From positions 15,850,111 to 15,914,110 of the forward strand of contig JAAONU010000016.1 of NCBI GenBank assembly GCA_012932295.1: a stretch of 64,000 nucleotides of DNA, read 5' to 3'. The first letter of the stretch is position 1, and the number at the start of each line of letters is the position of its first letter. This DNA is from Cyclina sinensis (lineage: Eukaryota; Mollusca; Bivalvia; Venerida; Veneridae). The notes below the pieces were generated by a model that saw only the letters and a list, made by a program, of their open reading frames with translations, searched no databases and was not told where the DNA came from. The translations under genes were made by a program, and so were the position numbers. Shown here piece by piece: positions 6,577 through 40,624 of the stretch.

Positions 6577-7190
6577 TGTGACAGAAGGACCACGAGTCTG
6601 ATTTACATCTCCTGAAATACCAAGGACTTCGGAAATGTAAGCCAGTCTTCGTAGATAAAGTTCCCTCAAATAATCGAGAACTAATATGTATCCAGGTTTT
6701 ATGATTTTTAAATCGTATTCTTGCGCCGTATAAGGTCCGCTTTTTACTGTCTTGTTCGAACTTGTTGAATATATCCCCTTCTCAATGGCTTGTAATCTGA
6801 GCATGAGCAATTATGGGTGGTAAGAGTTGAAAAACAAGATGATAGACATTTGATAACGCATCAGACAACGAATGAAATGGAAGTGTTAAGAGCGTTTTTC
6901 TATACTTCAAGTCAATGCGTAAAATCATATAACAGTTTAAACTTTGAAGGCTTACCGGTAGATTAACAGTTGCATGTATGCATTGAATAAGCTCAACATT
7001 ACTAGTGCGAGGATGAAACTGTTCATTTGCGCTGCTATATACGTGTGTCTTTCATCTGGTCCACGGACAAGAAGACGGCGAACTATTTGATAATGATGTC
7101 CATTATATAGAGCCAGAGACTGGTGGAAAACTGTATCTTCAAAGCAAAGGAAAGTTTGCTTCAATTATAGATCTTGATGTGCCAGCTGTT
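6577..7190 (-). other. Probable 5' non-coding exon(s) and promoter side of the lipid transfer gene
   Basis: A strong acceptor (TATTTCAG) ends at 6612, so the first coding exon is preceded by another exon. A donor-like CCG|GTAAGC lies near 6956 at the end of an open stretch (6952-7164) encoding a hydrophobic segment (MNSFILALVMLSLFNAYM). Joined to the acceptor at 6612, that frame does not reach the signal-peptide ATG, so I read it as untranslated or unrelated. No TATA box can be assigned with confidence. Confidence 0.25.
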
Positions 7191-7610
7191 AAAGTAAGCA
7201 AGTCTACAGATTATTTATTTATAAATATAAACAGACTAATTACACTTAAATTGTATTGTATTTGAAAATGAAAATGGTAAAGTTGTCTTAACCTTTTTAA
7301 ATTGATCGTAAAAATCCTGACCAAATATATTTGTAAAAATGTTATAAAATGCATCGTTAAACTTATTTCTGCTCAGTTTGTATATTTAAAACATGTTAAT
7401 AAAAAAATAGAGTAAACCAAGCGATAAATTTTCACAAATGTCTTTGAATTTAATGTTGTATTTTTTTACTTTCTTTATATTTTCTTTTTCAACTTCATTA
7501 TCCATTGCTATGAAGCACTTTTTTCTAACTGTCAGAAACATTTATAATTTAACGTAAAAATTGGAACTTTTTCAAACATAAAAGTGACGAATAATCTTTA
7601 GTCAGATTAG

Positions 7611-8456
7611 GCTCATAAAGTTCGCATTGAAGTTCGAGATCAAATTTAAATCATACGTCCAGAAAAATATTAAGACATGGTTACATATAGAAGACCGATA
7701 TTGAATTTAAGTGAATTTTGAGGAAGTGGACATACCGGGACAGTTCGGAAACGTTATTCGAAGTAAATCCTGTAAAATTAGTGCTGGGGTGAATGCCGAA
7801 CAAACTCAGAGACAGATGTTTTAGGTTGACAAGGCTGATTTTGAGCTAGGGCGTATGTCGAACCAGCGCCTGCATGAGATCGATTAAAGTGAACTTTGAT
7901 CTTGTTCGAATATCGAGCACATCTAAGATTGATATTCTGGTCAAATCCTGTGAAACTCGACCATGGGAGAGAATATCAAAACCAATTTCGAATATGGGTC
8001 TTAAAATATCCTCGATATTTGCACATGCTCGAAATTTTATTTTTCAGAATGTCGATCCTCGAAATTGTCAATCTCGAAGCTAACTGAGTTTAACTTACAT
8101 ACCAACCATCGAGCTATCCTGATATTCCGTGTTGATTCGAAATTATCTTTAGTTAAATCGATATCAATGCTTGCTCTATACTAAAGCAAGTTTAGAGTTG
8201 GTTCAATTTTCCAACCAGCTTGAAATTGACTTGAGTCGAATGTCGATCACAAAGTAGACTCGATAGAGCCCCAGATTGAATTCTCAGTGTTACTTCAAAT
8301 ATCGATCTCAAGATACTTAGTCTGAATTTGAAATTCACGGAGTTAAACTCAGATATTGATTTAAGAGCTTGTTCGATATTCGTTTCAGTCGGAGTTAATT
8401 TTAAATGAATACCACTGTCAAAATTGGCTCATTTTTTGCCTAAGCTCGAAATCTAA
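7611..8456. repeat. Degenerate repeat region rich in TCGA/ATCGAT motifs
   Basis: About 0.85 kb in which short motifs such as TTCGAAAT, GATATTGA and TCGATATT recur at irregular spacing, with no reading frame that looks like coding. Two overlapping ORFs near 7.88-8.09 kb are products of this composition. It abuts the fold-back element that begins near 8458. Confidence 0.4.
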
Positions 8457-8457
8457 G

Positions 8458-10497
8458 TATGGAATATTATTTAGGTAAAAGTTACACAACGCTTGCTTAC
8501 TGTTACAATTTACTCATTGACACTACTGTTGTGCTTACTGGTATAGTCATTATGCGTGCTGACACCTTCACTACGCTTGTTTTCAATGACACCATGATTG
8601 CTTGAAGTTACAACTTGTTCGCTGTTTAGACCCTCATGTCTATATCATAATTTCATTAAGTTGAATGACAGTGCAATATAGCGTAAGGCCATACCAAATC
8701 GTTCTTTCTTTTAGCGTCCGCGGACGGATAGGTTTGAGCTTCTGAGGTAGGAAAAAACAACAACATTGTTTTGCTTTACGACCTTACTGTACAAAGTATT
8801 AAATGCTTTCCGGTATGTTCGAGAATTTATACGTGACTAGTGTTGTTACCTCCTTTGCATCTTTACCCGAATTTTGTATTTACTGAGTCATGTAAAAAAG
8901 TTCCATGCGTGCATAAATTTGTTTGCGACGTCAGAAGAGGTTAGTTTCTGGTCAGTTATAATAAGATTTCAATGCCTTTTATTGTTTTTCAAGATAATAG
9001 CAAGGAAATGATTGTTTTATGTAAATTGTATGCGTTGAAGTATTTGTTATATGTTTTCGATATCAGTCGAATTTCTCAAGTGTAGTGTATACGCAAGCTG
9101 CAGCTAGAATTTGTTGATGAAGTTTAATGTAATTCAAATAGGTAGAGTCGGAAGACATTATTTATGACATTTTGTTAGTAGTTCACAAAGCAGATATTCC
9201 TTTCGTAACATTTTTGCTGAGAATTCTTCTTTCATAAGGGAGACAAATTCATTTGAATTATTTAAAAGAATTGTGATATCTTCGCAGTGAAGCCAACACA
9301 CACTCAGACAAAACAGATAGAGAAAAACAAATATCAGTAAAAATGATATTTTGGTGTTCAGTATTAAATTTTAAGTAGTGTTTACTTTTGTAATTTTTTA
9401 CAGTGATACCTCATTTGGATTTTAGTGGCATAGGATGGAAGGACCTGTCTAATAACATGAATGTGCATCAGTTTTATAGATTGTTGAAAATGAGTTGATA
9501 TTGACAAGTTGACTCCAAGACTCAGTTGTAAATTTACCTATGTAGAAATATATTTTCAGTTGAATTTATAGGTGGTTTGATTGAAAATACTTAGAGAAAT
9601 GCATTAAAAGTCTTTACAAAGTTGAATATGAAACTTGATAATTATATCCTGGTGTAGATACTAGTCAGTATGACTTGTTTATTTTTTGGGGCTTCGTTTG
9701 TGTTTTCAGGATAGCTAGATAGGTTTTTGAAATTAGGGTGGACGCTAAACGAAAAAACAATTTGGTATGGCCTAATGATATATTTCAACACGCCGGGGCT
9801 GTATATCAGCATTGATATTTCAACATTGCTCTGTTACAATGCTCCCAGAACAACATACACGATGTGACTACACAATGTAATCAGTCTCTAAGCATGTTGA
9901 AAGTAAGCATAATGTCAGTTGCAAAATTGCACTGTCACATTTTGATACCAGGGGGCGCACGTTTGTAGTTTTCATGAAAGGTAACGAAAATCTCCGTCCT
10001 ATGACTATTGTTAGATATCTATACATATTCGGATATTCTCGATAACTTTCCTTCAAATTACAGAAAAACACGACAACTTGCACATAGTGCCCCCTGTTGT
10101 CAAAATGTGACTGACAATTTTGAATTGATATTCTGCTTACTTCTATTCTGCCTAGTGCCTGATAACATTTTCTATATTGGTTGATCACGTCGTATATTTT
10201 GTTCTTGGATGCATTACAAATGAACCAAGATAGCCACGGCATGATAATATACCATTACGCTATATTGCGCTGCCATTTAGTCAAATGACATTATGATATT
10301 GACATCAGGGTCTAAACGGCATACAGGTTGTAACTTCCAGCAAGCATGGTATCATTGTCAACAAGCGTGGTGAAACTGCCAGCATGCATAATGACTGTAC
10401 CCGTAAGCACTTAAGCAGTGTCAGTGAATAAAGTGTAACAGTAAGGAGGCATTGTGTAATTTTTACCTAAATAACATTCCCATACATAAAATATCCA
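8458..10497. mobile_element. Fold-back (long terminal inverted repeat) element, about 1.55 kb before a secondary insertion
   Basis: Left arm about 8458-8725; right arm about 9739-9775 plus 10259-10497. Matching ends include GGAATATTATTTAGGTAAAA on the left and the complement of TTTTTACCTAAATAACATTCC on the right. Further matched blocks follow in order: a TTACTGTTAC block, the CATTATGC block, ACGCTTGTT, GTTTAGACC, GCAATATAGCGTAA, GGCCATACCAAAT and TTTAGCGTCC. The arms of about 270 bp enclose about 1 kb of AT-rich DNA with no transposase reading frame, so this is a non-autonomous element. The right arm is split by another element. It sits just upstream of the first visible exon of the Hedgehog-like gene. 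Confidence 0.75.
9776..10258. mobile_element. MITE-like fold-back element nested in the right arm of the larger element
   Basis: The segment interrupts the right arm exactly between GGCCT and ACGCTATATT, which are adjacent in the left arm. Its ends are imperfect inverted repeats (AATGATATAT... and ...ATATACCATT), and it may be flanked by a TA duplication, as in Tc1/mariner-type elements. Inside lie long complementary stretches: CACATTTTGATACCAGGGGG near 9937-9957 pairs with CCCCCTGTTGTCAAAATGTG near 10089-10108. The 124-codon minus-strand ORF here spans the hairpin and is not a gene. Confidence 0.7.
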
Positions 10498-10833
10498 CGG
10501 AGTTTGTCAAACGATTTAAAGAATTGCTGCAAAACAATTGAAAAGGTCATTTTACCCAAGTATCAGAGACACCAGATCGACTTGCCGTTACATTTTGAAG
10601 CGTGCTTTTGTATCATTTATACAGTAAATTTCGCTTAAACTTGATCATCATTTCTTTCCGAAAATGGGCTCTTATTTTTCTCTCCGGCGAATCATATGAC
10701 TGTTTAAGCGTTATGGTGTGTTCTTGGATCTTATAACTCATGAAAGTAGGAGTTGTCATTACTTGGTAAACGTATAACAAATTACCGGTGATGTTGTGAT
10801 GCTATATATATGTAAAAATTTTGTGTTTTCCAG

Positions 10834-13800
10834 AGAGTGCTCTGTAAAGAGAGCAAAATTCTTGTAGCACTAAACAAAGATGGCGGAAATGTTACGTCAT
10901 GGAAACCAGGGCAGCTGATCATTGGCAGTGAGAAGTGGAGATGTTATCATAACGTCCTTAAACCAGAATCAATGACAATCTATGCCAAAGTTGCAGCAGT
11001 AAAACATCCCAAGGACTATGTGATAGAACTTCATACTACAGAGGCAGGGTAATGTATTATTGAATCCTTGTTAGAAGTGTTGCTATGTGTACATACTTTG
11101 AATATGAAATAAACGTGATTTCTATGACTGGCTGTATGTAGAATTTTAAAACGTTTGTATCGAATATGCAGTTTAGTGATGTGGAAACGTACTTGCAGTA
11201 GACATAAACATGGGCATTACATATAAATATTGTTTTCAGTATTTTATTCTTTAGATTTGGACACATTAGTGTTCCCATCAAAGTGTGTGTTTTAGAGCTT
11301 AAGCAATGTCTTTTCTATGCCAGGCCCTTGGATATATTTGAAGAAGCTGATATCAGAGTCCAGTACGAACAAGGAGCATCTATTCCTTCAAGGACACAGG
11401 CGGTATCTTTCTAACCCTCTATACTTCGGTCTGAATCAGATGGACTATGTGACCGCTTTCACCAGTAATATACCATTCAATCTGAATAATGAAACAATGG
11501 TAGGTATTTTTTATCTTTCCCCCTTTTCTATCTTGCATATATTTCAGTCCCAAGAAAGACATATGATAGCTAAGTGAGGATTTTGAAATTTGTAAATTCA
11601 ACAAATATCTGTAAACATCCAAATAATAAGAAAAAGTTGCTCCGATAGAAATTTCGTTCTTGTCATTGACAAAAATATTCCAACAACGGTGAAATGTTTG
11701 AATTTGATTGTTAATTTGATTGACAGTAATTAAACGTCTTTCAAGTAAATATAATATTCTAAGAATATTTAAGCAAACTGAGAGAGTCGAGTAAAAAGAC
11801 CGGAAGTGTGTTTAGTGACGTCATATTATTCTTTGAGAGCTTGAAATTTTAACAAATGGCTGTTAGCGGGTCCATCAAATCTGAAAAATGTCACATATTA
11901 AGATGAGAAAATCTTCCGTTAGAACAGTGAAAACATTACTGAAGATATGAAATGTCAAAGAAATCAAGCAGAAATACATCCCTAATTATTTCCTTTAACG
12001 TCACAGTTTTTAGATTATACGCCATATTTTCACTTAAATCTTCGTTTTGATTTAAAAAATTGCGGGCGATATCACGGCATGGAAACATTTTACAAATATA
12101 TAATTCACAGGTTGAGCATGAGATTAACGTGTACAAGAATACAGGACCTGTTGAACCTTCTGTTGACACAAAATCAAATACTTCGTATGATGAAGAGAAA
12201 GATTTCCTTTTAAGATGTTTTGATTGCCATGGTCACAGTGATATCACTTTTAATTTGTAAGCATCTGCTTATTTACAGTGTTTTAGTTTTCTTTTAACTT
12301 CATTTTTTTTCAAATTCTCATATGGCACGTCTTAACTTCGAAAATGATTAAGTTTATTTTTTCAGCGGATTCTGTCTTTATTTACGTTTCGCTATAAATG
12401 CAAATAATATGGCGATTAAATAAAATTATTTAATTGATTTCGTAAGAATATATACAACAGAAAACAGCAAAAATTATGTGCCTTTTTGACATATTTGTAA
12501 TGAAGTACTATCGTTTTTTTTGATATTTCATTCAACTGGGACTGTGAGTTTTGGAGTTTACTTTTATTAAACATGCTTAAAACTGAAGCTTTCTTAGAAA
12601 ACATATCAAACAGAGCAAACTAAAATGAAAATCAATAACTTCATGATCGTGACCAAATTGCAGTCATCTCAAGATAAATAATGTCGACAAGAAAGCTGTA
12701 GTGAAGAAATACTTGATGACAATGGATATCCGCACGCATGCGCAACAAAATATAAGGTGAGTTTCATTAATGTTTCGTGAATTTTAGTAGTTTTAGTTAA
12801 AATGTAAGTAAATACATGCTGAAGATTGTACACGAATGACATACACAGTGGCACAGTGCATAACAATACCCAAATGTTCTTTAAATTTGTCATGTCACTT
12901 GAAAGAGTTGTGACTTAATCCTAGACATTTTCAACCAATATTTTAAACAATTGGATGGACAGCTTTGGTTTAAACCTTTAAAGCGCTAGAAACTTATGTT
13001 ACTGTCCCAGTGTCTACCTTATTTCACTGTATGACAATTGACAATAGGAATCGATTGTTTGGCCCAGGGGTCTAAAACGTTGCTATGTTATAATTATGAC
13101 CAAGTGCGCATGAGTTTAAATCCTGCATAAAGATGGACTTTTCCTGATGCACAGAGAACAGGCAAAAGACTAGAATTTTAAGTGTTTGTAGTGATGGAAG
13201 ATTCTGAATTGTATTATACTTTCTATTCTGTATTAAATTTGACCATAGTGGAGTCTCATATTTATACTTTATATCTATTAATTCCTAACCGTAACAGAAC
13301 TGTCTACGTATTGACGTATTTTCATCTTCTTTCCACAGTCTGTACACAGACAAGGAAATAGCCCTGACGAAGACGGCCGCTCTGTTGACGTCAGCCACCT
13401 TCGACAATATTTCAGACAGAGCTGGCAATGTTTAAGACATTGCCACCCATTATGTTAACTGTAAACTACACAAGTCAGGCCTAATACCTGCCCTGAAAGC
13501 TTCCACTAAAAGTGCTGCACAATATCAAGGGGACTTCAGCATGGATGGAAGAATATATATATGTAAGATAACTATGAAAGGGTTTTATAAAGGACCTATA
13601 TTGTAACACAGCTTACATATATAAATATTGATGTACAAAAAGCTTTATCAGACGTAATTAATTAATTTCATAATGATTTTGATAGTAAATGCTCAAATCC
13701 CTGTCAAATATCAAAATAGAAAGATTTTTTTCTCATTTAAAGAGAATAAAGTTACTTGATCATCATAATGTTTCGTGCAATCTAAACTGTCAAAAAAGCC

Positions 13801-16800
13801 AGTCTAAAACAAGACTTTTAGGCTTCTGTTCGGACACTGTTATGCTGAAATAAATAAATAAATAAATAAATAAATATTGCAGCTCAAAGCTTCGAGGAAG
13901 GGTCTGAACCAGAGAATGACGTCAGCGTTTTTGACTGGAACGTCACTTCCTCTCACCAGCATGTCGACACAAATGGTACCATGAATGCGACCTTCACCTT
14001 CTTTCAAAATATGACTATTACTCCTGCACTTTCGTGGTCCCTGCGAGATGTTGACATGGATCTTGGTCCTCCGATACGAGTGAGGCGAGTATAAATTTAC
14101 CTCTGTTGTGTAGATGGACTATGTTCATGTCTGAACACGGATGGTATTTTTTTAAAAGGGAGACAACATATCATTAGTAGTAAACGCAACAGTGCGTGTC
14201 CTAATTCTGTTAAAGGGAGATAATATTTCATTAGGCGTATTCTCTTTACTTCTATTAAGGATTTCACGACTTGTTGAAGGAAAAAAAATCATTTCATTAG
14301 GAGTTAACACGATATCGCGTCTCTTTATTTTGTTAAAGGGAGATAACATTAGGAATATAACATTTTATACCTGGTTTGATGTTATTACAGTACAAGACCG
14401 ACGTTGAGTGTTATATCTAGCTCGGACACAGTAGCACGTTGTCATGAGACGTCTGTCTCAATCGACAGTAACATCTCTGTACCAAATACTGACCTCGGTG
14501 TACAAGCTTATGGATTTGACATTTGGTAAGAAAATATGTCATGAACATACGTACTGATTCTATTCCAGTAACAATTGCAATGTGTAAAAAAATGAAAAAA
14601 AAATGAAAAAATTATAGAGCTACAAAATAGTCCGATTATGAATAAAAAGAAGGAAGTAATCATAACTCTATATGTTATGTATTTTTCTATTGTCTGCTCA
14701 ATGCGCACCTTTTCATTGCACGCAAAAACTGTAATATAGAAAACGGGGCTATCAATATGTTTGTAAATCAAAACTCGCAAGGCTTCTGTGAAACGAAAAC
14801 AAAACCACCTGCCGTGAGGCAATACATTACCGACGCCGTTCAACTGTTCAAAATTACGTCTCAGAATTATGGTATATAGTTGGTTTTAAAAATCTGCAGA
14901 AATCGGATTTTCTCTCTTTATTTACTGAGTGTTTTTCAGACAAAAAGAGGACAAAGTTGTCGAATAATTACATCATTGAAGAAATAGCAACTAATATAAC
15001 TGAGAAAGATCGAAGACTACATATCTACGAGGCCCTTTAGATATAACCACAAATAAAACGGCTCTCTTGAGTTTAGCCTCCTGTAAAATTTGAAATTTCA
15101 TATAAAATTTTATTGATGAACGGCTTTGCTACAGTGCTATAGTAGGGAATGAAAGTTTGGTTATTTACTTCAAGAATTAGATTTAAACTTGCTTCATACT
15201 TTTTAAACGCACATAAGGAAAGAAAGTTAAATGGAAAAGATGTTGGGTTGTGCAAGTGCTGTAATAGGATATAAGATTGAGATTTACTCAAAGGAAAGTA
15301 AGATAATTTCATAATAATAAGAAGAAATATTCTGTAAACTGTTTTTAATAATTGAAAGACTCGATATTAAAAAATTCTGCTGTAGGAATGTTCGGCTGAT
15401 GAAAAGCCTAACACGGAAGTTTGACATTTTACGACAACCATTACTACACATGTGCCACGCGGACTGCCACGGACCGGAAGAGCTAAGAGCAGACGACACA
15501 ATGGAGAGCGCGTGTCTGGAGCCGTCTGGTCCCATAGTCAGAGGAGACAGTAGATTTTACGGGTTGGTTCTAAACTCTGTTGCTAGAAAATGCACATAAG
15601 CTTCCTGTACACCATGACTTACTCTTAAATTAAAGGAAACACCTAAAACAGTTTACTTTGGTTATCTCCCCTTGACAGTATTGTATTTTGCTTGCCTGTG
15701 ATGAACATATTTAAAGAAACATAGATTGGATGATGACAAGTCACATTTAGACGACTGAAATATGAACCTACACAAACCAGTACCTGTCAGTAAATGTGTC
15801 AGACATTTCCGCAATACGTCTTTGTCACTTTGGTATTGGTTGTCGGTTTTGGATAAAAATACAGAGAAATTACATTGCATACTACAACATTCCGTCTTAA
15901 GGATCATTGTGAAGTTCATTTAATACATGCTATACCAAGGTAGAAGTTTGTCAATAATTTTAATTTAAGAAATTGCTGACCACTGCTGTCTTATTGAAAA
16001 AAAATAACTCAGACGTGGACTATAATGACAAACGGTACTAAGAATCATATGTTAGATAAAATCCAGTCTTACAGCCACTCGACCATCTGGTTAAAAGCTA
16101 TATATGATACTTATATACAGCCTGCATCAGCTATGGGGAGACTACGTTCTCTTTTCTTCCGAAGAAGCAAGCGCAACTTGGTGTGGTGACGTAGACAGAC
16201 CATGTGTAAATTGTTCACATCACGTGATTGGCAATAGTGAGGACAGCAGTTGCGCGGACAGATTAATGAACTTTGACCTTGCAACATCAGTTACGCGCCT
16301 TGCAAAATTTGTCGAGGTCGAATGGCCAGACAGTAAGTCAAAATATATACTTTATATATTTGTCGTTTCTGGCAAGTTTTTAAAGAAAATATTGGTAGTT
16401 TTCAACATAAAATGTCTTAATCTTTGCGTTTTTTTAGACCTGACACTAAAGATACTTAAACCAGTCAGCATATTATGGACTAGTATTTGTTAATACTTTA
16501 TACCAATTTATTGACATGTGTTACAAATAGCTTCAATACAAATATTGAAGCTAAAACAAAATATGCAATAATGTGCCGAATAATAGCTTCTAGCGATATC
16601 GCTTAGTAGAAATTCTAGAATCTTAAAGAAGATACATAACTCATGTAAAATCACAGTTCGCTGAAATGTGAAAGCGCTCATCTTCACAGGAAAGATTCTC
16701 GTGTTAGAAGCTTGGGACGAACCTACCTCAGATTTTCCGGAAGGTCGTCATGGTAACGTGTCGGTGTTCTACGAAGGCCGTGCAGCAGAGATATCTCTTA

Positions 16801-19800
16801 CCAAACCATTAACAAAGGCGTCTGATGCACCCGAGATCGAAAATGACGAATACATTTTAGAACGTCTGACTGAACTTGCTGTTTGTTCAAACTTTGCCTA
16901 CGTAAAGAGGGATAACTCTTCAGTGTCCATGTGTGTAGAAAATAGAAATCTGGAAGCAAGGAAAAAGCGTTCATTATTATCGAGGACGAGACGTTCAGGG
17001 CACGTTGAACATTCAATGGTAAAAGAAATGCTGGAGGAGTTAGGTATGTATTACATGTTAATATTTGTAAATGTCTAAACAGACAAATTACTGATGCCTC
17101 CATTGCAAGGCGAACATGTGTTGCTAATTAGGTCATGATTAGACTTGCACTGAAAGAAAATAAAACAAAACTATCCACATTTGTATTTTAATATGTGATA
17201 TATAAAACTTATTAAATTTGAAGGTTTATAAAATTCTGTTGTTGGTTTGAAATCGTCATAAGTTTGCAAGTGTGACGTGCCATGCTTTGCCAAGAATGAC
17301 CAAGTATCATATGGCTCCTTTGATAAAAGCAATTGCTTCCACGTAATTTGGTCAAATTGAATGAAACTTCTTAAGTGCGATTGGTTTTCTACTTCTTGTT
17401 TTTTTAAGGGGACGGCTGTTGAGGCCTCTGTTGATGATCTAGGGTCTGCACCTAACCTGGCTTTATACGAAGCGTATCCTAGCAATACAACAATGGAGGC
17501 TGTTTGTGGTCCATTCACAGGAACTATCTCACAGGACGACCCAGACAAATTTCGAAGGTACAATTACACAACCTGTTTGACTTTTTTTCTGTTTATTCAG
17601 TAGCTGAAACATTTTAAATTCTCACTAAGCCAAGTATTGCTGCGAAATGTAACCAACTACCGAACGCATTTGTACCTTAGTTGACGACAATTCTTTTTGT
17701 TATACGGCGGTGTATATGTAGTTATATCCAGCCATGCACTAACTACACAATTCATCCGTTATATAGCACGACGCGCGCTAACTGACCTTTATGCCAGGTA
17801 AACTGACGTATCTAACTATTGTATAAGATATTTACAGCCTTTTTTTTTTTCGTGTATTTGTGATTATACTGCTCACTGCCCAAGGCCCTTATGAGCGTAT
17901 AAATAGCTTATCCTCGAAAAATTCATGTTAACATTAGTTATAAAAGGCATACACGGTTGTCTTAAGATGAAAGAATGAATCAAGTTGTATATTAATCAAC
18001 ACTTATCGAACGGATTAGCGAGTTGGATATCTTTTAAAGTGTATTTTTTACATTACATGCGTTTGAGCTTACCTGTTCAAGTGATATTTAAAGCACAATA
18101 TGTCCCCTCGCTGGTCGAAAGGTTTAATAATATCTCATAAGTGTGGCTTTTTAGTTCTTGTAGTATTCACTGATTGTAGGATAGTATTCTTTTTGCCGAT
18201 GACTGGACCCCAGTCATTTTCACTTTATATTTCTAGACTGGTTGAATATCCATTGAGTAACGCAGAATTTGAATCTGAGGGTCCTGCTGACACGTGGTGT
18301 GGTGTAGAGACGCGGCAGTGTCAGGGACTGTACCCTGCCCTCGGATGATCTGGATGACCACTGGACGTGGTGCGGTACAAGGACCATGCATATGAGACTT
18401 GCATCTGGTCTTCAGAGACTGTCCACTATCACAAACCAACAGGGTACTGCTCAAGTCAGATTACGTACACGTTCAATGCATGTGTGAAGAATATATTCCA
18501 AATCTACTCATCAGTTGCTAGAAACTGATTTTAAATCCGATATTTTACTTTATAGTTAAACAATTTCCCGTAAAGTCATGTACACAATACTCATGGAAGA
18601 AAATATCAGTAAAAAGATCCGAGACAATTATTTTCAATTATTTTGTGTTCTTAAATTCGAGCACATGCTTCGTCATAATCATAAAATCATAATACCGTGT
18701 CTCTAATATTGACTATCATTGGTTAGTTTGAGTAACCATTGATGTATAAGTAGTTACATCTTAATACGACTTTCAAGAGACGGCTAAAAATATGATTATT
18801 TCAGTTAAAGTAAACAGGGCATTGTCGATGAAAGAACCAGACAACAGCTCTAAACTCTTCGAGGAAGGCAGGTATGTGATGAGTGTTCATTAAGTACCTA
18901 TTACCTCCTGTAAGATAATTATGTTACAGACATACAGATATTGAAGCTGTGATTTAAGTGTTTTGTCTGAGCTATTAAAACAATGTAGAAGAGCGGATTG
19001 ATGCCAACATTCTAAGCCACACTTGAACTGTCTTCAAAATACAGTGAAAAAATATCACTAGTTCAAATTACACTCTCTTTCGATCAATGTTGCCAGGCGC
19101 GTAGCTAGCCTATAAAGAATGTGGATTCAAAATAATCTAGGGGGGTCAGGGGGCATGCCCCCCCTGAAAATTTTGAAATAAATGGTGCAATTTGGTGCGT
19201 TTTGGGGCCTCCGGAGAGCTTTCTTGACCAACGAAAATCCATTTATTTTAGCATAAAAATGGAGATGAATAGCTTTACTTTCGTTTATTTCAACTACAAT
19301 TTCAAACCACATTTTTTTTACTAAAAAAATTTTTTTTTTGTCAAAATAATGTGGATTCAGCTGCGTACTCGCGTATAGGCAGCTACGCGCCTGGTTGCTC
19401 GCATTTAAAGGTAAAAAGTTGTAAAATTGTCTAATTCTTTACCGTCATTGAGTCGCGTTGCATTTCCGGTCAACATCGTGTTTCATTATTTATTTCGTAT
19501 TATTTAGAGCAGCGCGGAATAAGCATGGTACCAGGGTCTTCATTTTCAATGGACGAATTTGCTTCGAAAGCCATTCTTGCGGGCTTCGACTATGTGAAAT
19601 ACGCTTCTGAAAATTATCTAGAAGTCTGTGTTAAACTTCAAGATGGCATGCAGGCGACCGTCGTTTCATTTCCTCTTGCTAAACTTATCGCAGTACCACT
19701 TCCGGTTGGAGAAGAGGACGAATACGATTACCCGGAAGTTGTGAAGAAAGAAACTAGAAAACCTTTGCTCTTTGACTTTTTCACCAGTCCAGATATTATT

Positions 19801-22800
19801 GGCATCCACTTTCGATTGAGCAACTTTGTGAGTCCTGGCAGACGACATTTACGGATTGATCCAGTGCTGGTGAACCTTCTAGATTTAGGGTACAACATTT
19901 ACCATGGCGGGTTTTATGTGATTTCTGGTTCAGGATACAGACCTAGATCTGTCAACAACGATAATATTGCGACAAGGCATGAGAAAGAAATAATCAGATA
20001 CAGGATGGGTCAGGCTGTGGAAATCAAACCGAACATGCCCACTAATAATAACATGCTTTTTGACCTTGGGCTTGCCATGATTAAAGTTGCTCGTACAGTG
20101 CGGATGCGTCGTATTGGCGTTGGAATAGGTTGTAAAACAGATAGGCTATACTTTGAAATCCGTCCAATGGACAAGAATAACAGCAAGTCCATAGACGTTT
20201 GGGAAAGTGGAAATGTGGATCTTTTTAACAGATTGAAAGAAATTGAGTACCTTGTGTCTATAGGTAATTTTCGATATTTCGTCTTATAATTGTTTTATAC
20301 AATGAATTTCTCTCTCTCTTTTTCTCTCTCATTGTAGAATAAAAAGTTTAAGATTAAAAACTACTGTTTGGAAAAATAAGTATTGATATATCCTTGACTA
20401 GGTCTAGGTCTCTTAATTGAATTAAAGCATGTGGTTTAGATTTCTATAAAAGACATTAATAAAGGTATAGAATACATAACAATTGAAAACGTTCCCCCTG
20501 TTCGTTTTCACTACTACTATATATTAAAGATTTAACTTTTCGACGCTTCTCTTTTGTCATATGTCAGTGAAAATCCTTGCAAGTCAAAGCATATGAAAAG
20601 TCTTTCGATGAAGATAGTCCATACGGCAGCAGACTGTTGCCCACAGTACATGTATCTAGAAACTGTTGCTTGTATATGTTTTCAGGTGTGACAATATGCA
20701 CATATATTCAGGTAAAAGAAACAATCATTAAATGATATCTGACAGACAGACATTTTTTGTATATTTGTGCAGGCGGTACCGTAGTCACGGCGACTTTTGA
20801 CCCCGTCATCTGCAAGGAGTCTGAAATAGGAAGCAACTTTTTCTACTTCAGCTTTGACCTTGAAGAAGAAGGGTAGGTAAAAAAACAAACGTATCCAGTC
20901 ACAAGAAACGTTTTAAATGTATCTAAATTAATAATCCTTTTAATGAAAGTTAATTCTTAATTTTTTCATTTACACTGCAGTAAGAATAAAAACTGGACTA
21001 AAATATATTGCATTATTTTCAAGAAATAGAACGTAAAAAGGTAAAGTAGAATTGCACTGGTGACCTAGGTGTCAAACTAGATCCATTCATGATCGAAACT
21101 TAGAGTTACAAATATTCAGATCAGCTGTGAATTTACAGTCCATGCAACTGCATCAGACCGAGGAGTTTTGTGAGGAGACAAGAGAAGACAGAAAAAGGGT
21201 AGGCGAGGGACTTACAGAAGGTTTTCAGCAGAGTGGCAGGATCTGACAGACTTCCAAGGAAAGATATCGTGTCTGAAATACAGGAATGCATTGTAGACAC
21301 ATGTGGCGGCTGTCCTAGCACGGGTAAGATGATGATTTTTCCATTTGTTTTCGTGGTAATACAGATATTCGATGATTTATTTTGATACCCTTTCAAATAT
21401 TGTTTTGATAAAGGCAGAAATGATTAATGCAAGAACTCTTAAATGTAAAAATGAATAATGTGAAAGTTGAGTTATTTTTATTGTTATGAATACTCATTTT
21501 ATTCTAAATTACTTCCGTATGACAGAAATTAAACTATTTGTAGATATGTAGGCTTTATTCATTTTCTATATTAAAATTGTTTAGTGGTCAAATGTTTTTA
21601 AGTATGACCAAGTAATATTATTGCAACAAAAACACATCATTCATATTCAAACAATATGTGCTTATTCTTCTTTGTATCAGGATTAGTTCGCCTTTTAAAC
21701 GTAATAAGTTATAATTATAATAACAAGCATATTATGAGGATCTAATTATTAGTTGTTTCAAATTTAAGGTGCAATTTGGAAACAAAAAGTTATAAAATGT
21801 GCAAAGATGGTCTCGCGATTCCTAGAACGGGCCAGTACACCCTACCCACCTCTTGTTGACAAGGTGACAATATTTAACACAGAAAATCTCCAATCCTCTG
21901 TTCATTCATTGGCCTGTCATGACGGTAACATTTGTATAGAAAATACAAAGCTTTATGCTATTTTAGGTAAGTTTTCAGCTCTTTCGTGGGATCAAGAAAC
22001 TTCAACCTTTAGAACTTTTAGTTACGAATTTAACTTGTATGAATACAGTTAAGTTCTGTTTCTGGTTGAAATAACGTCATACACATTTCTGTAATGTTTA
22101 ACATTTAATGTTTATTATCACCACCATAATAAATAAAAGTTGAATAAAAACTTAATAGAATTCTAAAAGTTCTTCGTGGTTTAACTAGAGGAAAAATTAC
22201 AACAGCAAATATCATTTGCTAGAATATAGTTAAGAAATTGACAAGCCCGAAAAGAGGTTTTTGTGAGGCATTTACTTGTCTTCTGCAGAACCAACTATTG
22301 CTGCCACTTACGAACATGAGCACACCACGGACCTATTGTTTGCTGGGTCAGATAATCCGAGTCCGCTGCTAGAAATCGCGGAACAGGAGCTGGCGTGGAG
22401 GGCGGAAGGAAATGTCAACGTGTTTATAGAAAGTATGGAAGACCTGAGTGCACTGAGTAACACACTCAAGGTATATACTGATTTCGTTTCATAATTCTTT
22501 TCTTTTTCTTTATTTCTTTTTTCGCGTGGTAAGGAAAAGTATAAAAAAGTATAGAGCAAGTTAAGCTCCGGATAATACTCTTTCTTAACTGGCAAACCAA
22601 CACTAATTTCCGAAAACAAGTTCTACATGTCTGCAGTGTATTTTCAAAGTTGTTTAAACATCTGAGAAACAAGGTCCCTTTATCATGTTGTAAATAACGT
22701 TTTCTTGTCTCTCATAATTTGCAAATTGATGACCTGAAATTATTTGCTTGAACACTCCCAAATTAAATGGTTTGTTTCAAACTATAATACACAAGTCTCA

Positions 22801-23136
22801 TTATCTTTGTCTGTTTTGATTGTTTACGATATACCGCCTGAACAAACATCTTTCTATAAACAGATAATTATGATGTACAACAGAAAGATAAACAACGTAA
22901 CGTTTCACATCACTGATGCAGCCAGCAAAGATAACATATATTTTGGTATCCATGAGTTAGTTGCGCAGTGGTCGGGTTCCGTGTGCCCGCGATGGAGTAG
23001 ACTGGTTTCCACACCATATCGGCTGGAGATAATACCACATGACCGGAAGAAGCGAAGTGCTGAGAGAAGTCAACAAAGAAACCAGATGAAACTAGACATG
23101 AGACACTGGGAGGTCAACTGGTTACTGAAATCCTAA
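10834..23136 (+). CDS. Large secreted-type protein with two tandem Hedgehog signalling-domain-like modules and a third M15/Hedgehog-fold module (5' end not found; several frame breaks)
   Basis: Nineteen exons: 10834-11048, 11324-11499, 12111-12256, 12664-12756, 13339-13562, 13883-14084, 14391-14525, 15386-15562, 16121-16332, 16690-17043, 17409-17557, 18237-18443, 18805-18871, 19508-20263, 20773-20872, 21139-21323, 21826-21966, 22289-22470, 22864-23136; about 1,330 residues. The first 450 residues are beta-rich, Cys-containing and unrecognised. Two modules then follow the full order of the Hedgehog N-terminal domain, and the long exon 14 adds an M15-like module. Two furin-type basic sites follow module 1. 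No Hint domain is visible, so Hedgehog-style cholesterol self-cleavage is not expected. Four exons (2, 11, 12, 14) need removal of one base to stay in frame; TAA at 13433-13435 and TAG at 21200-21202 are in frame. AATAAA lies at 23245. Known: Hedgehog N-domains share the fold of M15 peptidases. Inferred: an extracellular binding or structural role. Confidence 0.72.
13048..13160 (+). repeat. tRNA-like SINE fragment in an intron of the Hedgehog-like gene
   Basis: CCCAGGGGTCTAAAACGTTG followed about 45 bases later by GTTTAAATCC resembles the unit near 51.18 kb (CCAGTGGTCTAAAGC..., TGGTTCGAATACC), so the two are probably copies of one tRNA-derived family. The B-box here is decayed. Confidence 0.4.
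13846..13874 (+). repeat. (AAAT)n microsatellite
   Basis: Seven near-perfect AAAT units directly upstream of the acceptor of exon 6 of the Hedgehog-like gene. Confidence 0.9.
14152..14352 (+). repeat. Short tandem repeat of about 60 bp, 3-4 copies, in an intron
   Basis: Repeats of a unit with AAAGGGAGATAA(C/T)AT, a TTTCATTAGG-like block, and a (G/C)GCGT(G/C)TC block at 14157, 14212, 14278 and 14335. Complementary open frames are produced on both strands and are not genes. Confidence 0.65.
15464..16914 (+). other. Hedgehog N-domain-like module 1
   Basis: Spans exons 8-10. The conserved order of the Hedgehog signalling domain can be followed: GPIVRGDSRFYGL (the G-x-I-x-R....RF..L segment), DYVLFSSEE (the NPDIIFKDEE strand), CADRLMN (the ADRLMTQRC helix start), then VEVEWP, VLEAWDEPTSDF (the VTEGWDEDG loop), VFYEGRAAEISLT (the LHYEGRAVDITTS strand), LTELAVCSNFAYVKR and VSMCVE (the HIHCSVK end). 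The acidic residues that bind calcium in Hedgehogs are largely kept. All three zinc ligand positions are changed: His to Phe, Asp to Glu, His to Met. A Cys-rich insertion (WCGDVDRPCVNC) is extra to the family. Confidence 0.75.
17409..19640 (+). other. Hedgehog N-domain-like module 2
   Basis: Spans exons 11-14. It repeats module 1: GTISQDDPDKFRRLV, FESEGPADTWCG, a Cys-rich insert (RQC then DCTLPSDD after one frame correction), MHMRLASGLQRLSTI, VKVNRALSMKEPD, LFEEGRAA, ISMVPGSSFSMDEF, ILAGFDYVKYASENYLEVCVK. The last block is the clearest Hedgehog match (family form: [20 protein letters not shown]). Zinc ligand positions read Phe, Arg (or a neighbour after the frame correction) and Val, and the calcium loop is poorly kept, so this copy has diverged further than module 1. 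Intron positions and phases parallel those of module 1 (the phase-2 junctions before LHQLW and RLVEY), which supports duplication of an exon block. Confidence 0.72.
19092..19393. mobile_element. MITE with CCAGGCGCGTAGCT terminal inverted repeats
   Basis: The left end CCAGGCGCGTAGCT is the exact complement of the right end AGCTACGCGCCTGG, about 300 bp apart, with TTG on both outer sides as a possible 3-bp target duplication. A GGGGGGTCAGGGGGCATGCCCCCC palindromic block lies inside. No transposase frame. It occupies the intron just before exon 14 of the Hedgehog-like gene. The small minus-strand ORF (19127-19312) is part of this repeat. Confidence 0.8.
19720..20263 (+). other. M15-peptidase/Hedgehog-fold-like module 3, catalytically dead
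   Basis: The rest of exon 14 reads on after module 2: DPVLVNLLDLGYNIYHGG, FYVISGSGYRPRSVN, RYRMGQAVEIKP, LFDLGLAMIKVARTV, RIGVGIGCKTDRLYFEIRP. The order Ser-Gly-Tyr-Arg, (H)RxGxAvDi, a helix, then Gly-x-Gly...h-x-H/F-x-(D/E)-x-R is that of M15A/M15_3-type D-Ala carboxypeptidases, the structural relatives of the Hedgehog N-domain. The first zinc His is replaced (R-Y-R-M-G), the Asp is Glu, and the final His is Phe (LYFEIRP). Known: the three-ligand site is needed for peptidase activity. Inferred: a binding module. Confidence 0.55.
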
Positions 23137-26200: not shown

Positions 26201-28231
26201 CACGCTGCTAAGCTGCTCAGCTGTCCCAAAAGACCGCCAGTCTCACACCGCCCGTACAATACCCACCTAACGCCGACAGTAAAATTAATTTACACTGTCA
26301 TAAGAACGCAAGTCTTTCTATACATGACCACAAGGCCGGTTTATTTTCACTCCTAATCTACATAACAACAACAGCTAGGCCATAAAAGTCTATATCACGT
26401 TGCTAGATCAGCAGGCAAGGTAGCAAGTCCTAGACCCCACACTTCACGTTGCTTGTCCGCTAAGTCGATAACATCTGTTGTTCTTTCAATTGTTTCGAAA
26501 AGAAAAAAATATGTTACTGGCCCGCAACCTGAAGCAATTTCAACATATGCCAACGAGGAGAAGCGCGGATTTGATTAGTGGAAAGGCACGGAAATTGTGA
26601 TACATGGAACGTGAGTTTGATCCCCCTCTTCTTTACTTACACTAATTGTATTTCAGATTAGAAGTTAAACCTGGGTACCATATATCGGTGCTATACACTG
26701 AGCATGTAAAACGACTAAACGTATCATTGGAATAGACAGCTTTCTTTATCTTCCACCATCACCTAGTAACTAAATAAAGTCTTCCGCTCGAGTCGGTCAT
26801 ACACGCAGCCGTTAAAGGTACGAAATAAGAAATACAGAAAGGAGCTGAATCCATAAAATATAATGTAAGATAGAGCTATTATATGTCATTACACTCAAAC
26901 GGGCTGAGTCGAAATACAAAAACTTCATAGATTAGAACCAAAAATCTTATTTCAAGCATTGAACAAGTTGTTGATCAGATACTAAATCAACGCATGTTGT
27001 CTGTGAAAAGTGAAAAAAGTCAAAAGGTTGTATAACATTTATATAAATCGTACTTGAATGGGATAAAATATGTCAATAATCGTTTTTATTAAATGTTTCT
27101 TATCTATGAAACCATGCCGTGGGAGGTTTATTAATATATTTCTGAATAAGAATTTGTACAAGCTTAAACTGAAAAAACAAACGCCAAAGAAAAAAGGATT
27201 AAAGCATGGAACGTTTAATTAACGCCAATATGTGAAGGGCAAAGTTATAAAAATCATAATGTCACCGTTGACAGGATAAGAAAAGCATTTTTAACTTTTT
27301 ATGCCGATAGAGTGTGAATTGATCGGCCGCACATTAATATCTTCTATTCAAACACTGACAAATATTTCTACGTCTAACGGATTTAAATGAAAAGTAAACA
27401 CTGGGGCTAATAGCTAAAACAGGCATTAATATCATAATGGTGTACCCTTGCATTGGGGGATATATGATCTTGTATAGTGAATAAACAATATATCAGACGA
27501 TAGCCGGTCAACGCGCCAATTAAATCAGCATTTCCATCAACTTAGATCAAGGAATATGTAATCAGAGAACAAATATACAGCTGTTTCAAAAACCGACTGG
27601 GACCATGAATGAAAATCTCGAATTGCATTAAGGAGCTTAAGTGTTAAACTTTGAAACATTTGTTTTCTTTTTGATAATCCGCATAGTGATTTGAACCTAA
27701 ATAGAATATTTTGACTTTAATGGAATTGCACTGTTTGAAACTAGAATGATAAATTTCGGTGGTAGGATTTTAAGTCATACCAGCTTACTGGTAGAATTAC
27801 AGCGTTAAAACCTCCTTCAATATGCTATTTGTGCGGATTTACAGAGGTTTAAGGATGTAATTAAGAATAAGGGTTTTTTTGCGCTTTATTCGTAAATATT
27901 TGTTGTAAATGGATATGATCTTGAAACACGAAACTTGTAGTGACATGGAACGATGACTCTCAGTGTAGTTTAGGAATATGAAACAAAAGAAATTTAAAAG
28001 TTCATGCGGATAGAATTCGATAAACAGCGAGAGTGAAACAAAAGCTTGTTTAAATAAAAAGAATGCTAACAATTATCCAATATTTCCATAGCACCTGACT
28101 GACTTCAATTGTTGAGCAAGCAGGGTGAAACTGCGGATACAAATAATAAAATAATGTAATAATGGATTTTGTGGTCGTGAAAGCATTTAATATTTCTAGA
28201 TATATTTTAAGCTCAGTTTTCGGATTACAGT
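23251..28231. other. Intergenic, no gene recognised
   Basis: About 5 kb of AT-rich sequence between the Hedgehog-like gene and the single-exon ORF at 28.2 kb. Short ORFs (24341-24592, 25605-26012, 25825-26085, for example) lack splice-consistent neighbours, conserved motifs or coding-like composition. A short (CA)n/(TA)n run lies at 25640-25665. A SINE fragment is listed separately. Nothing else is seen. Confidence 0.6.
26562..26705 (+). repeat. tRNA-derived SINE fragment
   Basis: GTGAGTTTGATCCCCCTCTT marks the B-box. Downstream, GGTACCATATATCGGTGCTA and TACACTGAGCATG match the body shared by the copies near 31.2 and 37.6 kb. Confidence 0.6.
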
Positions 28232-29905
28232 ATGAGATTTGAACAGATTCTGGACGGTTTTGAAGACGTTCTGTTTGAAAGTCCTCTTCCGTCAACGCGC
28301 CAGGGAAGTGCAAGCGTTAGGATTGATATGAGCGTACATTCTGATGATTCATTTGAATTTGATGATGTCAATTCCTGTGCGGAAACAGACGAAGGCCGTC
28401 TGTCGAGATCATTACAGTCATGGATGATTGATCACAAATGGAGAACAATAGAACCGTTAGAAAAACCACCTCTCGAACCTGTGTTCAGCGGGAAACTTGG
28501 CAAAGTACGGCGAGTGAATAGGTCAAACAAGACTGCAAAAGAAAGAAGCGTAGCGGCGTCTAAGGACAAAAGGTGTAAGGCGGCACCATTAAGGCGTATA
28601 CCCAGCGATGATTCTATACAAACAAGCTTATCTCTTTTGACATGTTCTTCATTAGAAACTCATGTGATAGAATTAACAAGTTCTAAAACAAAACGGCGTA
28701 AAAAGCGAAAGAACAACTCACGTGCATCTTCTTCAATGGAAACAAATGTACCTTTCGTATCAAAGTGGGAAGAGGTCATGAATCGTCGAGTGACCAACCT
28801 TAACAAACTATTCAAAAATCATACGGTTATGGTAAATAAGTGTGGATTCATTGCCGGAGTAGACGAAAACGAAGAGTCCGAAGCATTCCGCATGATGGAT
28901 AAGGATGAGCAGACGGCACTTTTGGACTGTGGCAGAAGGCGAGGTATAAGGTATACTGACAAAACAACTTTGAAAAGAAGCTCCAGTATGCCTAAACTGA
29001 ACATAGATATAAAACCCCGTGTTATAACGAGAACTTTATCGGCAAATGCTAAGAAATCCTGGGGTAAACAGATTGATATTGCTGAACTAAAACGTGAACG
29101 AATGAATCGCTTGATCGCTATTGAACAGGCCAAAGCTCTGCAGGAAAAGGAGAAGCAGCGAAAAGGACGCCGTCATGGACTCACACGTACTTCATCAAAC
29201 AAATCTTTGACATCATCTGCAAGACCAACCTCTCCTACGAATACTTTAGCTGGAACAGAAGCTTCTATCAGGCAGTCTCAAGGCTCCAGACACAGTTCAG
29301 ACTTGAGGGCTTATTCTCCGTCCGATAAACCCTCGCAGCTTGATGAACCAGAAGAAAAGATCGCGGTCTGGAAAGGCGACAGACAAATTCTTGAAATAGA
29401 TCTCAAAAGAGAACTTACAGAAAGAGTGAAACAAAGAATTGATTCCACACGAACTGCACTGAAACGTGTGACTGGATATGGAGATGAAAACAAACAAAAA
29501 CTCTACATTGGAGGGAACGAAGAGTATCCTCAACATGTAGAAGAGGATTTCTGTCATAAACCTAGAATCATTCAGCAAATGAGAATCTCGCCTCATCTCA
29601 GTGGAATTATACATGACGATATCCAAGTGCGAATGGGACGTCCCAGATATCACGAGATTCGAGTAAACGACCTTGAACAATGGGATAAAGGTCAGGAACT
29701 TAATCGCGCACATAGAAATTTGAAAGTGTTCAACTGGTTACACAGTCTAAACGATGTTACTTTCATTACAAATGTGACTGCAGACGTCAATGATAATGTT
29801 CCTGATGAAGACGGGTCCACGTTGCAGGAACTTCTGCACGTAGAGGCAGCAGACGAACCGGATGTTGCACCACTTTTTAAACAATACGAAGTTCGGATAC
29901 TCTGA
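28232..29905 (+). CDS. Single-exon 557-residue protein of unknown function
   Basis: One uninterrupted frame of 557 codons, far longer than chance at this base composition, so very probably coding. No signal peptide or membrane segment is visible. The N-terminal 60 residues are acidic (SDDSFEFDDVNS). A basic stretch follows (KTKRRKKRKNNSR, near residues 153-165), which could be a nuclear localisation signal. Near residues 285-315 there is a charged helix likely to form a coiled coil (ELKRERMNRLIAIEQAKALQ). Then comes a Ser/Thr-rich low-complexity linker and a C-terminal part with several tryptophans (EQWDKG, VFNWLHSL). I recognise no family. A splice acceptor-like TTACAG just before the ATG suggests an upstream non-coding exon. 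AATAAA occurs at 30956. No frame breaks. Confidence 0.7.
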   Translation: MRFEQILDGFEDVLFESPLPSTRQGSASVRIDMSVHSDDSFEFDDVNSCAETDEGRLSRSLQSWMIDHKWRTIEPLEKPPLEPVFSGKLGKVRRVNRSNKTAKERSVAASKDKRCKAAPLRRIPSDDSIQTSLSLLTCSSLETHVIELTSSKTKRRKKRKNNSRASSSMETNVPFVSKWEEVMNRRVTNLNKLFKNHTVMVNKCGFIAGVDENEESEAFRMMDKDEQTALLDCGRRRGIRYTDKTTLKRSSSMPKLNIDIKPRVITRTLSANAKKSWGKQIDIAELKRERMNRLIAIEQAKALQEKEKQRKGRRHGLTRTSSNKSLTSSARPTSPTNTLAGTEASIRQSQGSRHSSDLRAYSPSDKPSQLDEPEEKIAVWKGDRQILEIDLKRELTERVKQRIDSTRTALKRVTGYGDENKQKLYIGGNEEYPQHVEEDFCHKPRIIQQMRISPHLSGIIHDDIQVRMGRPRYHEIRVNDLEQWDKGQELNRAHRNLKVFNWLHSLNDVTFITNVTADVNDNVPDEDGSTLQELLHVEAADEPDVAPLFKQYEVRIL

Positions 29906-31159: not shown

Positions 31160-33305
31160 GTGAATTTCATTTGGCTGCCAGTTGATCCCCATCTCCTCCA
31201 CTTACATTACTGTCTTTCGGATAGGGACGTTAAACCGAGGTCTCATGTATCAGCGCTGTACACCTAAGCATGTAGAAAAAAACCAGGGGTAGTCTCTGGA
31301 TTGGGATGGTTTTTAGCTCGATTTTTTTCGAAGAAAAAAATCGAGTTATTGCTATAGTCATGGTGTCGTTGTCGTTGCCGCTGCCGCTGCCGTTGCCGTT
31401 CCCGTTCGAAAACTTTAACATTGATAATATTTTTTATTAGTTAATGGATTGTCTTCATACTTGGACACAACAACCCTTTGGACAATACCTTCAAGTAGAC
31501 CAGACTGAATTTGACCTTGACTCATAAAAGACCTTCACCTTTAAGGTCAAATTGTTAAATTTTGCTAAAATTGGCCATAACTTTGTTATTTGTTGTTGGA
31601 TTTGATTCATACTTGGACAAAACAACACTTATGACAAATCCGACATTATGATTCTTTAATGTTCGACCCTGACCTTAAAATGACCTTCACAGTCAAGGTC
31701 AAATTATTGAAATTTGCTAAAACTGGCCATTACTTTGTCGTTCATGGTTGGATTTGATTAATACTTGGACAAAACAACACTTATTACAAAATCGACATGT
31801 TGAATAACTCGTTTTTGACCATGACCTTAAAATAATCTTGACAGTCACGGTCAGATTGTTGAATATTTTGCTTTAATTGCCATAACTTCCTCTTTTTTAT
31901 GGATTTGATTCATACTAGGACAAAACAACACCTATGACAAATCCAACATGATTATTTCAAGTTTGACCTTGACCTTTAAATGACCTTGACAATCAAGGTC
32001 AAATTATAAAATTTTACTAAAACAGGCCATAACTTTGTTATTTATGGTTAGATTTGAATCAAACTTGGACAAACAACACTTATGACAAAGCTGACATGTA
32101 AAATTAATCAAGCGTGACCTTTAATTTCAAAATGACCATGAGCATCAAGGTCAAATTATTGAATTTTGCTTTAATTGTCATAACTTTGTTGTTTATGGTT
32201 GGATTTGATTCATACTTGGACAAAACAATTATGACAAAATCGACATGTTGAATAACTCAGGTGTGACCATAACCTTAAAATGACCTTGACCATCAAGGTC
32301 AGATAATTGAATTTTGCTTAAATTGTCATAACGTTCTCATTTATTTATTGGTTTGATTCATACTTGGACAAAACAGCACTTACGACACATCTGACATTTT
32401 GATTCTTTCGAATATGACATTGACCTTCAAATGACCTTGACAGTCAATGTCAAATTATTGAATTTTGCTAAAACTGGCCATAACTTTGTTATTTGTGATT
32501 TCACTTTAATCATACTTGGACAAAACAACACTTATGATCAAGCCGACATGATAAATTATTCAAGTGTGACCTTAACCTTAAAATGACCGTGACCATCAAG
32601 GTCAAATTATTGAATTTTGCTCAAATTGTCATTACTTTGTTATTTATTTATGAATTTGATTCATACTTGGACAAAACAACACTTATGACAAATCCAACAT
32701 TATGAATTTTTCAAGTGTGACCTTGACTTTAAAATGGCCTTGACAGTCAAGGTCAAACAATTGAATTTTGCTTACATTTGCCATAACTTTGTTATTTGTT
32801 GTTTGATTTGATGTATACTTGTACAAAATACACTTATGACAAAACCGATATGTTGAATAACTCAAATATGACCTTGACCAAAAAATGACTTTAACCGTCA
32901 AGGTCAGATGATTGAATTTTGCTTAAATTGTCATAACCTTGTCATTCTTTTATGGATTTGATTCATACTCGGACAAAACTATAGTTATGACTAATCTGGC
33001 GTTTTAATTCTTTCAGGTATGAACATGACCTTTAAATGACCTTGACAGGCAAGATCAAATGTTTGAATTTTGCAAAAATTGGTATGGGTGGATTTGCTAA
33101 TTATATTTCCAAATGATATTTCATTTCAAATCTCTTCACCACAATGTGCTCCCTCTGATTTGTTTGCCTTTGAAAATAGGAAAAAGTCGAGCGTGGCCCC
33201 CGCTTGCAGTGGCTCTTGTTGTATCTTGCCCCCACAACATATAATAACTAAACTCTGCAGAGGGCGTCATCATATCGGCAACCGGTACCGACGATAAATG
33301 AACTC
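31160..33305 (+). repeat. SINE copy split by an inserted tandem-array element
   Basis: The left part (to about 31308: CGTTAAACCGAGGTCTCATG, then CCAGGGGTAGTCTC) and the right part (from about 33220: GTATCTTGCCCCCACAACAT, then GCAACCGGTACCGACGATAA) together match the uninterrupted copy at 37580-37830, where the halves are contiguous (GGGATGTTTTCTGTATCTTG). The SINE was therefore present before the array element arrived. Confidence 0.75.
31309..33222 (+). mobile_element. Pearl/Helitron-like non-autonomous element with an 11-copy, about 151-bp tandem core
   Basis: It opens with a strong hairpin (AGCTCGATTTTTTTCGAAGA, then the complement ending ATCGAG) and a GTCGTTGCCGCTGCC tract. About 11 tandem units follow (31440-33075). 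The marker CATACTTGGACAAAAC recurs at about 31460, 31610, 31760, 31912, 32064, 32212, 32362, 32512, 32664, 32814 and 32967. It ends near AAAAAGTCGAGCG...GGCTCTTGTT. Bivalve pearl-type elements, classed with Helitrons, have this left end / tandem core / right end plan. No Rep/helicase frame is present. Each unit carries several AGGTCA half sites. Confidence 0.7.
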
Positions 33306-40600: not shown

Positions 40601-40624
40601 AAGTCTGGAAAGTTTCAATGAAAA

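Follow-up and report, generated by a model that had tools for sequence, protein, structure and literature searches.

Can the Hedgehog N-terminal signaling domain occur twice in one protein, and without the Hint domain to which it is joined in the Hedgehog morphogens? The question is raised by a gene in a stretch of 64,000 nucleotides from the bivalve Cyclina sinensis (contig JAAONU010000016.1, positions 15,850,111 to 15,914,110 of the forward strand), called the window below. An earlier reading of its letters (the original prediction) had proposed Hint-less Hedgehog-like modules in tandem, two and perhaps three of them, at 15464..20263. The positions of the two modules and their identity as Hedgehog N-domains are borne out by matches to Pfam HH_signal (PF01085), to PDB chains and to a related protein, P0001, while the extent is not: the gene, which is probably a bivalve gene, begins well before this span and ends well after it (Table 1).

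Two Tandem Hedgehog N-Domains

Module 1, as spliced from the window, matches PF01085 with E = 3.3e-11 and 43.6 bits (cut-off, 22.1) and Hedgehog chains in PDB at 7.4e-7. The window's own module 2 is broken into pieces by frame breaks, and pieces 2, 3, and 4 gave no HH_signal match. The intact module 2 of P0001 matches PF01085 at 8.2e-10 with 39.1 bits (same cut-off), and a profile of module 2 from 10 relatives finds Sonic hedgehog (Shh) at 1.6e-8, Hedgehogs making up 25 of the 26 among the matches listed. By tblastn, module 2 of the window matches P0001 in three frames (E = 5.5e-10, 1.2e-22, and 4.2e-105), the last match extending over module 3 as well. In fold comparison the Hedgehog N-domain fold was found, and the predicted structure of module 2 matches the Hedgehog/M15 fold. 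The outcomes named in advance as refuting the original prediction did not appear: the matches are significant, for module 1 directly and for module 2 via P0001, and long relatives, predicted independently, have both modules in a single chain. Evidence from profiles, profile-profile comparison, folds, and orthologues supports a Hint-less protein with two Hedgehog N-domains in tandem.

To judge from their sequences, modules 1 and 2 are duplicates of each other: hhalign aligns them over 158 columns with a probability of 99.5% (E 6e-23), and a WCG-C-C insertion is common to both. The parallel intron phases that had been noted hold for two pairs, with phase-2 introns (15562/16121 and 17557/18237) at matching places in the two modules and phase-1 introns (16332/16690 and 18443/18805) that match within about two residues, the register being judged by eye on the hhalign alignment; they do not hold for 18871/19508, the last intron of module 2, to which no module-1 intron corresponds. 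The tree built from 32 rows, whose root is arbitrary and in which two rows are long, puts the 15 module-1 rows together in a single clade (99/97) and the 15 module-2 rows in a second one (100/100), with the only module of Lingula P0017 and an Shh sequence outside both. Since each of the two clades contains bivalves and Haliotis, the duplication is probably older than the bivalve-gastropod split. The Lingula protein, with its one module, is a model of 524 residues and possibly partial.

Relatives and Their Variants

Three protein searches returned 12, 10, and 12 proteins, 17 of them different. They come from Ruditapes, Mactra, Mya (two), Dreissena, Saccostrea, Pinctada, Tegillarca, Haliotis (two), and Lingula, and include P0001, P0002, P0004, P0008, P0009, and P0014, given here by number. 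For the 12 of the first search, the best local alignment covers the whole scored region (100%) in 10 and 59–60% of it in the two oyster proteins; oyster and Lingula gene models may be incomplete. Twelve long relatives have the modules in one chain, four of them as LOC models and five as single-transcript-like records of 4,342–4,850 bases.

The predicted absence of Hint holds in all nine relatives scanned: the family was not found to E 1 in six of six, nor to E 0.1 in the three others. Above the Pfam cut-off, the nine contain only HH_signal, plus a VWA domain in P0016, and no cadherin, EGF, or Ig family.

Some relatives depart from the common layout. In Tegillarca granosa (P0016), a VWA domain (8.7e-18) is inserted within module 2 at residues 729–890, and the parts of module 2 on either side match at 1.1e-21 and 1.9e-11. 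This insertion resembles the pairing of Hedgehog and VWA in hedglings and choanoflagellate proteins. A cysteine-rich insert of ~330 residues occupies roughly this position in Saccostrea P0011 and Pinctada P0012, and a furin-type site comes after it; the insert has no PDB match to E 10 (P0011 part only) and no Pfam match above cut-off, CBM_19 (0.085) lying below it. A hunch that this insert is lysozyme-like was dropped and the insert left unassigned, as neither PDB nor Pfam supports it. The match of P0014, a protein of 2,781 residues, is confined to module 3 and the C-terminal domain (84.4 bits, profile positions 954–1376); the shared part is at residues 2339–2770, and Cadherin_5 and Big_9 are found above cut-off, with weaker fn3 and EF-hand. 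Module 1 of the partial P0013 from Mya arenaria opens with four copies of RLLASSQ, which are perhaps a gene-model artefact.

Metal Sites of the Hedgehog Modules

Rows were compared with the Shh sequence, P0011, P0012, P0015, and P0016 standing outside the module-2 count and P0013 outside both counts. Not one of the 16 module-1 rows or of the 11 module-2 rows has a complete zinc triad (H141/D148/H183); four module-1 rows (P0010, P0015, P0016, and P0017) retain its first His. The calcium ligands E90, E91, D96, E127, and D130 occur together in 12 of the 16 module-1 rows, that of the window among them, and in 0 of the 11 module-2 rows. Module 1 may be a calcium-binding domain.

Module 3 and the C-Terminal Domain

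The suspected third copy is, by prediction, a module of M15-peptidase type that is only distantly Hedgehog-like. Its predicted structure has the M15 fold, and the module is predicted to be a zinc-less M15 peptidase-type domain. The zinc ligands of M15 enzymes are His, Asp, and His (PMC11266112). This set is kept in 0 of 17 module-3 rows, the first His being Tyr or Phe in all 17 and the last one retained only in P0014 (P0016 does not reach it). Fifteen of the 17 rows have the arginine of the YR motif; of the 16 rows that reach D-x-x-H, 15 keep its Asp. A reading of module 3 as a third Hedgehog domain is not supported by sequence, with hhalign probabilities of 0.2% against module 1 and 1.1% against module 2 and no Pfam match. 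Its matches to designed “Cake” repeat proteins in PDB, down to E 1.9e-17, were taken as an artefact because they are based on one 17-residue stretch that is repeated in the target.

The C-terminal domain is likewise assigned by predicted structure, in which the CD38/cyclase fold was found; it is predicted to have the fold of CD38 and the ADP-ribosyl cyclases.

Furin-Type Sites and Secretion

Furin-type motifs (R-X-[KR]-R) were located in an alignment of 12 rows, A1. The first site, near residue 160, is present in all 11 A1 rows that reach it, the middle one, near 689, in 11 of 12, and the last one, at 1380, in 12 of 12; P0016 has all three and P0015 the first and the last. The precursor would probably be cleaved at such sites by furin-type enzymes. 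The last site is followed by a conserved tail of 26 residues (1381–1406 in P0001), which could be a released peptide.

The hydrophobic leader encoded by exon 1 looks like a signal peptide. In the relatives other than P0014, hydropathy over 19 N-terminal residues is at least 1.5 in 10 of 16, and later stretches never reach 1.6 except in P0012 (1.71); P0014, which has a later stretch at 3.18, was left out. Secretion of the precursor is predicted as likely.

Gene Structure and Integrity of the Window Copy

Exon 1 was located by tblastn of P0001 (E = 6.6e-13). The blocks of P0001 are collinear with the gene at ~37–78% identity (tblastn; cross-module matches set aside), and splice sites are GT..AG wherever examined. 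The N-terminal region encoded by exons 2–8 contains no Pfam family above cut-off in a scan of six relatives.

Table 1. Features of the window, in positions of the 64,000-nucleotide stretch; the tandem-Hedgehog gene lies on the + strand.
Feature	Position	Strand	Description
Tandem-Hedgehog gene	7013-23136	+	20 exons by own model
Exon 1	7013-7193	+	ATG at 7013, hydrophobic leader, ~40 more residues; one internal frame break
Exons 2-8	10834-11048, 11255-11499, 12111-12256, 12664-12756, 13339-13562, 13883-14079, 14391-14525	+	N-terminal region (10834..14525)
First furin-type site	~11391-11403	+	Crossed by a frame break
Exons 9-11	15386-15562, 16121-16332, 16690-17043	+	Module 1, ~15489-16950
Middle furin-type site	16983-16994	+	RTRR, between modules 1 and 2; window sequence
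Exons 12-14 and start of 15	17409-17557, 18237-18443, 18805-18871, 19508-20263	+	Module 2, ~17470-19650
Module 3	19756-20262	+	Inside exon 19508-20263; predicted M15 peptidase-type fold without zinc ligands
Exons 16-20	20773-20872, 21139-21323, 21769-21966, 22289-22470, 22864-23136	+	C-terminal domain 20773-23043, predicted CD38/ADP-ribosyl cyclase fold
Last furin-type site	23044-23055	+	RKKR; window sequence
C-terminal tail and stop codon	23056-23136	+	From relatives' alignment and window translation; gene ends at stop 23136
Frame breaks	Exon 1; 11394-11400; two in 13339-13562; joins 14079/14391 and 17043/17409 (phase clashes); ~18322; ~19514; two in 21139-21212	+	By tblastn and by eye
Open reading frame	28211-29905		Intact, 564 codons; no Pfam match to E 0.01
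Satellite-like array	31512-33081		151-base unit, ~10 copies
Two arrays	40127-41426		Near-same 44-base unit in opposite orientation, 10.7 and 6.9 copies; 105-base tandem repeat between
Repeat	48241-49151		Related-looking to the 44-base arrays
Multicopper oxidase gene	52524-53520, by look to 60217	-	Cu-oxidase_2 (6.1e-14) and Cu-oxidase_3 (1.4e-7) in first two open frames; sub-threshold match at 56874-57128; none in two other frames tested

About ten frame breaks interrupt the ~4.2 kb of coding sequence in the window copy. They are real in the assembly, and probably they are assembly errors: they fit one-base shifts, most of them beside short homopolymers (by eye), and no in-frame nonsense codon is needed. 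A TAG in exon 21139–21323 is explained by two frame breaks instead of nonsense, because P0001 is matched in different frames by the exon's end and (by eye) by its middle.

The same breaks might be read as the decay of a pseudogene of the family, all the more as the 564-codon open reading frame elsewhere in the window is intact. It also counts toward decay that, among 146 residues invariant in 12 relatives, all eight that are changed in the window lie in the C-terminal part, so that the copy could be drifting there. However, the other 138 are kept, two of the ten breaks are phase clashes at joins for which an alternative splice site might account, and the splice sites and the lack of any necessary nonsense codon speak against decay, as does the multicopper oxidase gene of the same window, which seems to share such a break near 53070 (by eye). 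A decaying copy is considered unlikely.

Possible Function

The explanation to which we give moderate confidence is that the gene encodes a secreted, furin-cut precursor whose Hedgehog and M15-type modules serve as extracellular binding surfaces, module 1 with calcium. The precursor, with its two Hedgehog N-domains, zinc-less M15 domain, and CD38-fold domain, would be secreted, and furin-type proprotein convertases would split it into chains, either separate or joined by disulfides, that would bind extracellular partners, partly through the calcium site of module 1. Most likely, the product would be a pseudoenzyme scaffold or a ligand in hemolymph or matrix, with the Hedgehog fold as a protein-binding surface; a role as a cholesterol-modified or classical Hedgehog morphogen is not favored.

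Several observations weigh against this explanation. One predicted structure model has a mean pLDDT of 58.5, and Foldseek finds nothing below E 0.03 for module 3. The C-terminal domain has no PDB sequence match to E 10 and no Pfam match above cut-off, and its alignment with the human CD38 sequence is equalled or beaten by 48 of 60 shuffles, so that the catalytic Glu and the two Trp cannot be mapped safely. In module 1, the sixth calcium ligand of Shh, D132, is found in only 3 of 16 rows, and P0005, P0009, P0012, and P0017 deviate in the other five. As for processing, the middle furin-type site is absent in P0008 and P0015, and RXKR occurs inside module 2, too (753); the motif is hence no proof of cleavage. 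Furthermore, 6 of 16 relatives, some of them partial models, have no strongly hydrophobic start.

Alternatively, the protein may be a Hint-free ligand of the Hedgehog class, whose furin-released domains act on Patched or on receptors of the Ihog/CDO/BOC type. Ihog, CDO, and BOC bind Hedgehog by its calcium face, the five ligands of which most module-1 rows keep, and a furin-type site follows module 1 in nearly all A1 rows. What makes this possibility a slim one is the loss, in modules 1 and 2, of the zinc pocket or pseudo-active site through which Shh partners, including HIP and Ptch1-derived peptides, bind (PMC11266112), together with the absence of Hint in the nine relatives scanned, and hence of Hint-driven cholesterol attachment.

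An immune or matrix protein that binds bacterial peptidoglycan through its dead M15-type modules may also be considered, since the Hedgehog/M15 fold is matched by both module 2 and module 3, and peptidoglycan is what M15 enzymes act on. The VWA domain in module 2 of the ark clam and the cysteine-rich insert in the two oysters would suit such a protein, but the oyster insert has neither a PDB match nor a Pfam match above cut-off, and we regard the idea as rather improbable.

A misjoining of two or three adjacent genes has in its favor only the phase clash between modules 1 and 2 (17043/17409) and is scarcely credible, as the twelve long relatives, independently predicted, hold both modules in one protein, contrary to what separate genes would give.

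Beyond the favored secreted binding protein, one bolder guess is held with little conviction: the polyprotein of two Hedgehog domains, a dead M15 domain, a CD38-fold domain, and the 26-residue tail may be a second, convertase-driven route to Hedgehog-class ligands, built on an ancient core of module 3 and the CD38-fold domain that is also present in P0014, perhaps a protist protein.

Comparison With Known Systems

With Hedgehog proteins the family shares the HH_signal domain (modules 1 and 2) and, in 12 of 16 module-1 rows, five of the calcium ligands. It differs from them in having two N-domains, the WCG-C-C insertion, furin-type sites, a large N-terminal region, and predicted M15-type and CD38-fold domains, in the loss of the zinc triad, and in that no Hint was found in the nine relatives scanned.

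Hedgling combines Hedge, VWA, and cadherins (PMC4054682; PMC2362128); the former paper describes a Hedgehog-VWA cassette and the latter a cnidarian Hedge-VWA-cadherin protein. Hedgehog, DD-peptidases, and hedgling are treated together in PMC6027127. Like hedgling, the family places a Hedgehog domain without Hint in a protein that is large and probably extracellular, and VWA is also found in the Tegillarca member. Unlike hedgling, it has two Hedge domains, and the nine scanned members have no cadherin, EGF, or Ig domain and no stretch of transmembrane strength outside the start; VWA occurs in one of the nine, and there inside module 2, not beside a complete Hedge domain.

Module 3 shares its predicted fold, the YR arginine, and the Asp of D-x-x-H with M15 zinc DD-peptidases and L-Ala-D-Glu endopeptidases such as 1lbu, ChiX, and LysECD7, the latter two of which we take to be M15 members. 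It differs from these enzymes in the replacement of the zinc-binding His, Asp, and His by Tyr or Phe, mostly Glu, and mostly Tyr, respectively, and in the lack of a sequence-profile match. With the ADP-ribosyl cyclases (CD38 and the Aplysia cyclase), whose catalytic residues are described in PMC1949048, the C-terminal domain shares the predicted fold but no significant sequence similarity.

Excerpts of PMC8166818, PMC4944945, and PMC3538665 contain nothing on a tandem-Hedgehog family, and no published description of a tandem Hint-less Hedgehog, M15-type, and CD38-fold architecture was found in open-licence PMC papers, a scope that makes this a weak absence. The original statement that no such family was described stands as far as papers go, but a molluscan family is already deposited as uncharacterized proteins, two of them with a UniRef name starting with “Hedgehog N-terminal signalli...”, and the architecture thus extends beyond one genome.

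Hedgehog domains are known with Hint, in the morphogens, or, in hedgling and its kin, beside VWA and cadherins. In lophotrochozoans, the present family would add a third way of using the domain, without Hint, as a tandem duplicate together with a peptidase-type module. It lets one ask what role the Hedgehog fold has without zinc, cholesterol, and autoprocessing. If the predicted fold is right, module 3 would be a bridge, within one animal protein, between Hedgehog and M15 peptidases of bacterial type, and the ark-clam member, whose module 2 encloses a VWA domain, is relevant to the idea of an ancient cassette of Hedgehog and VWA.

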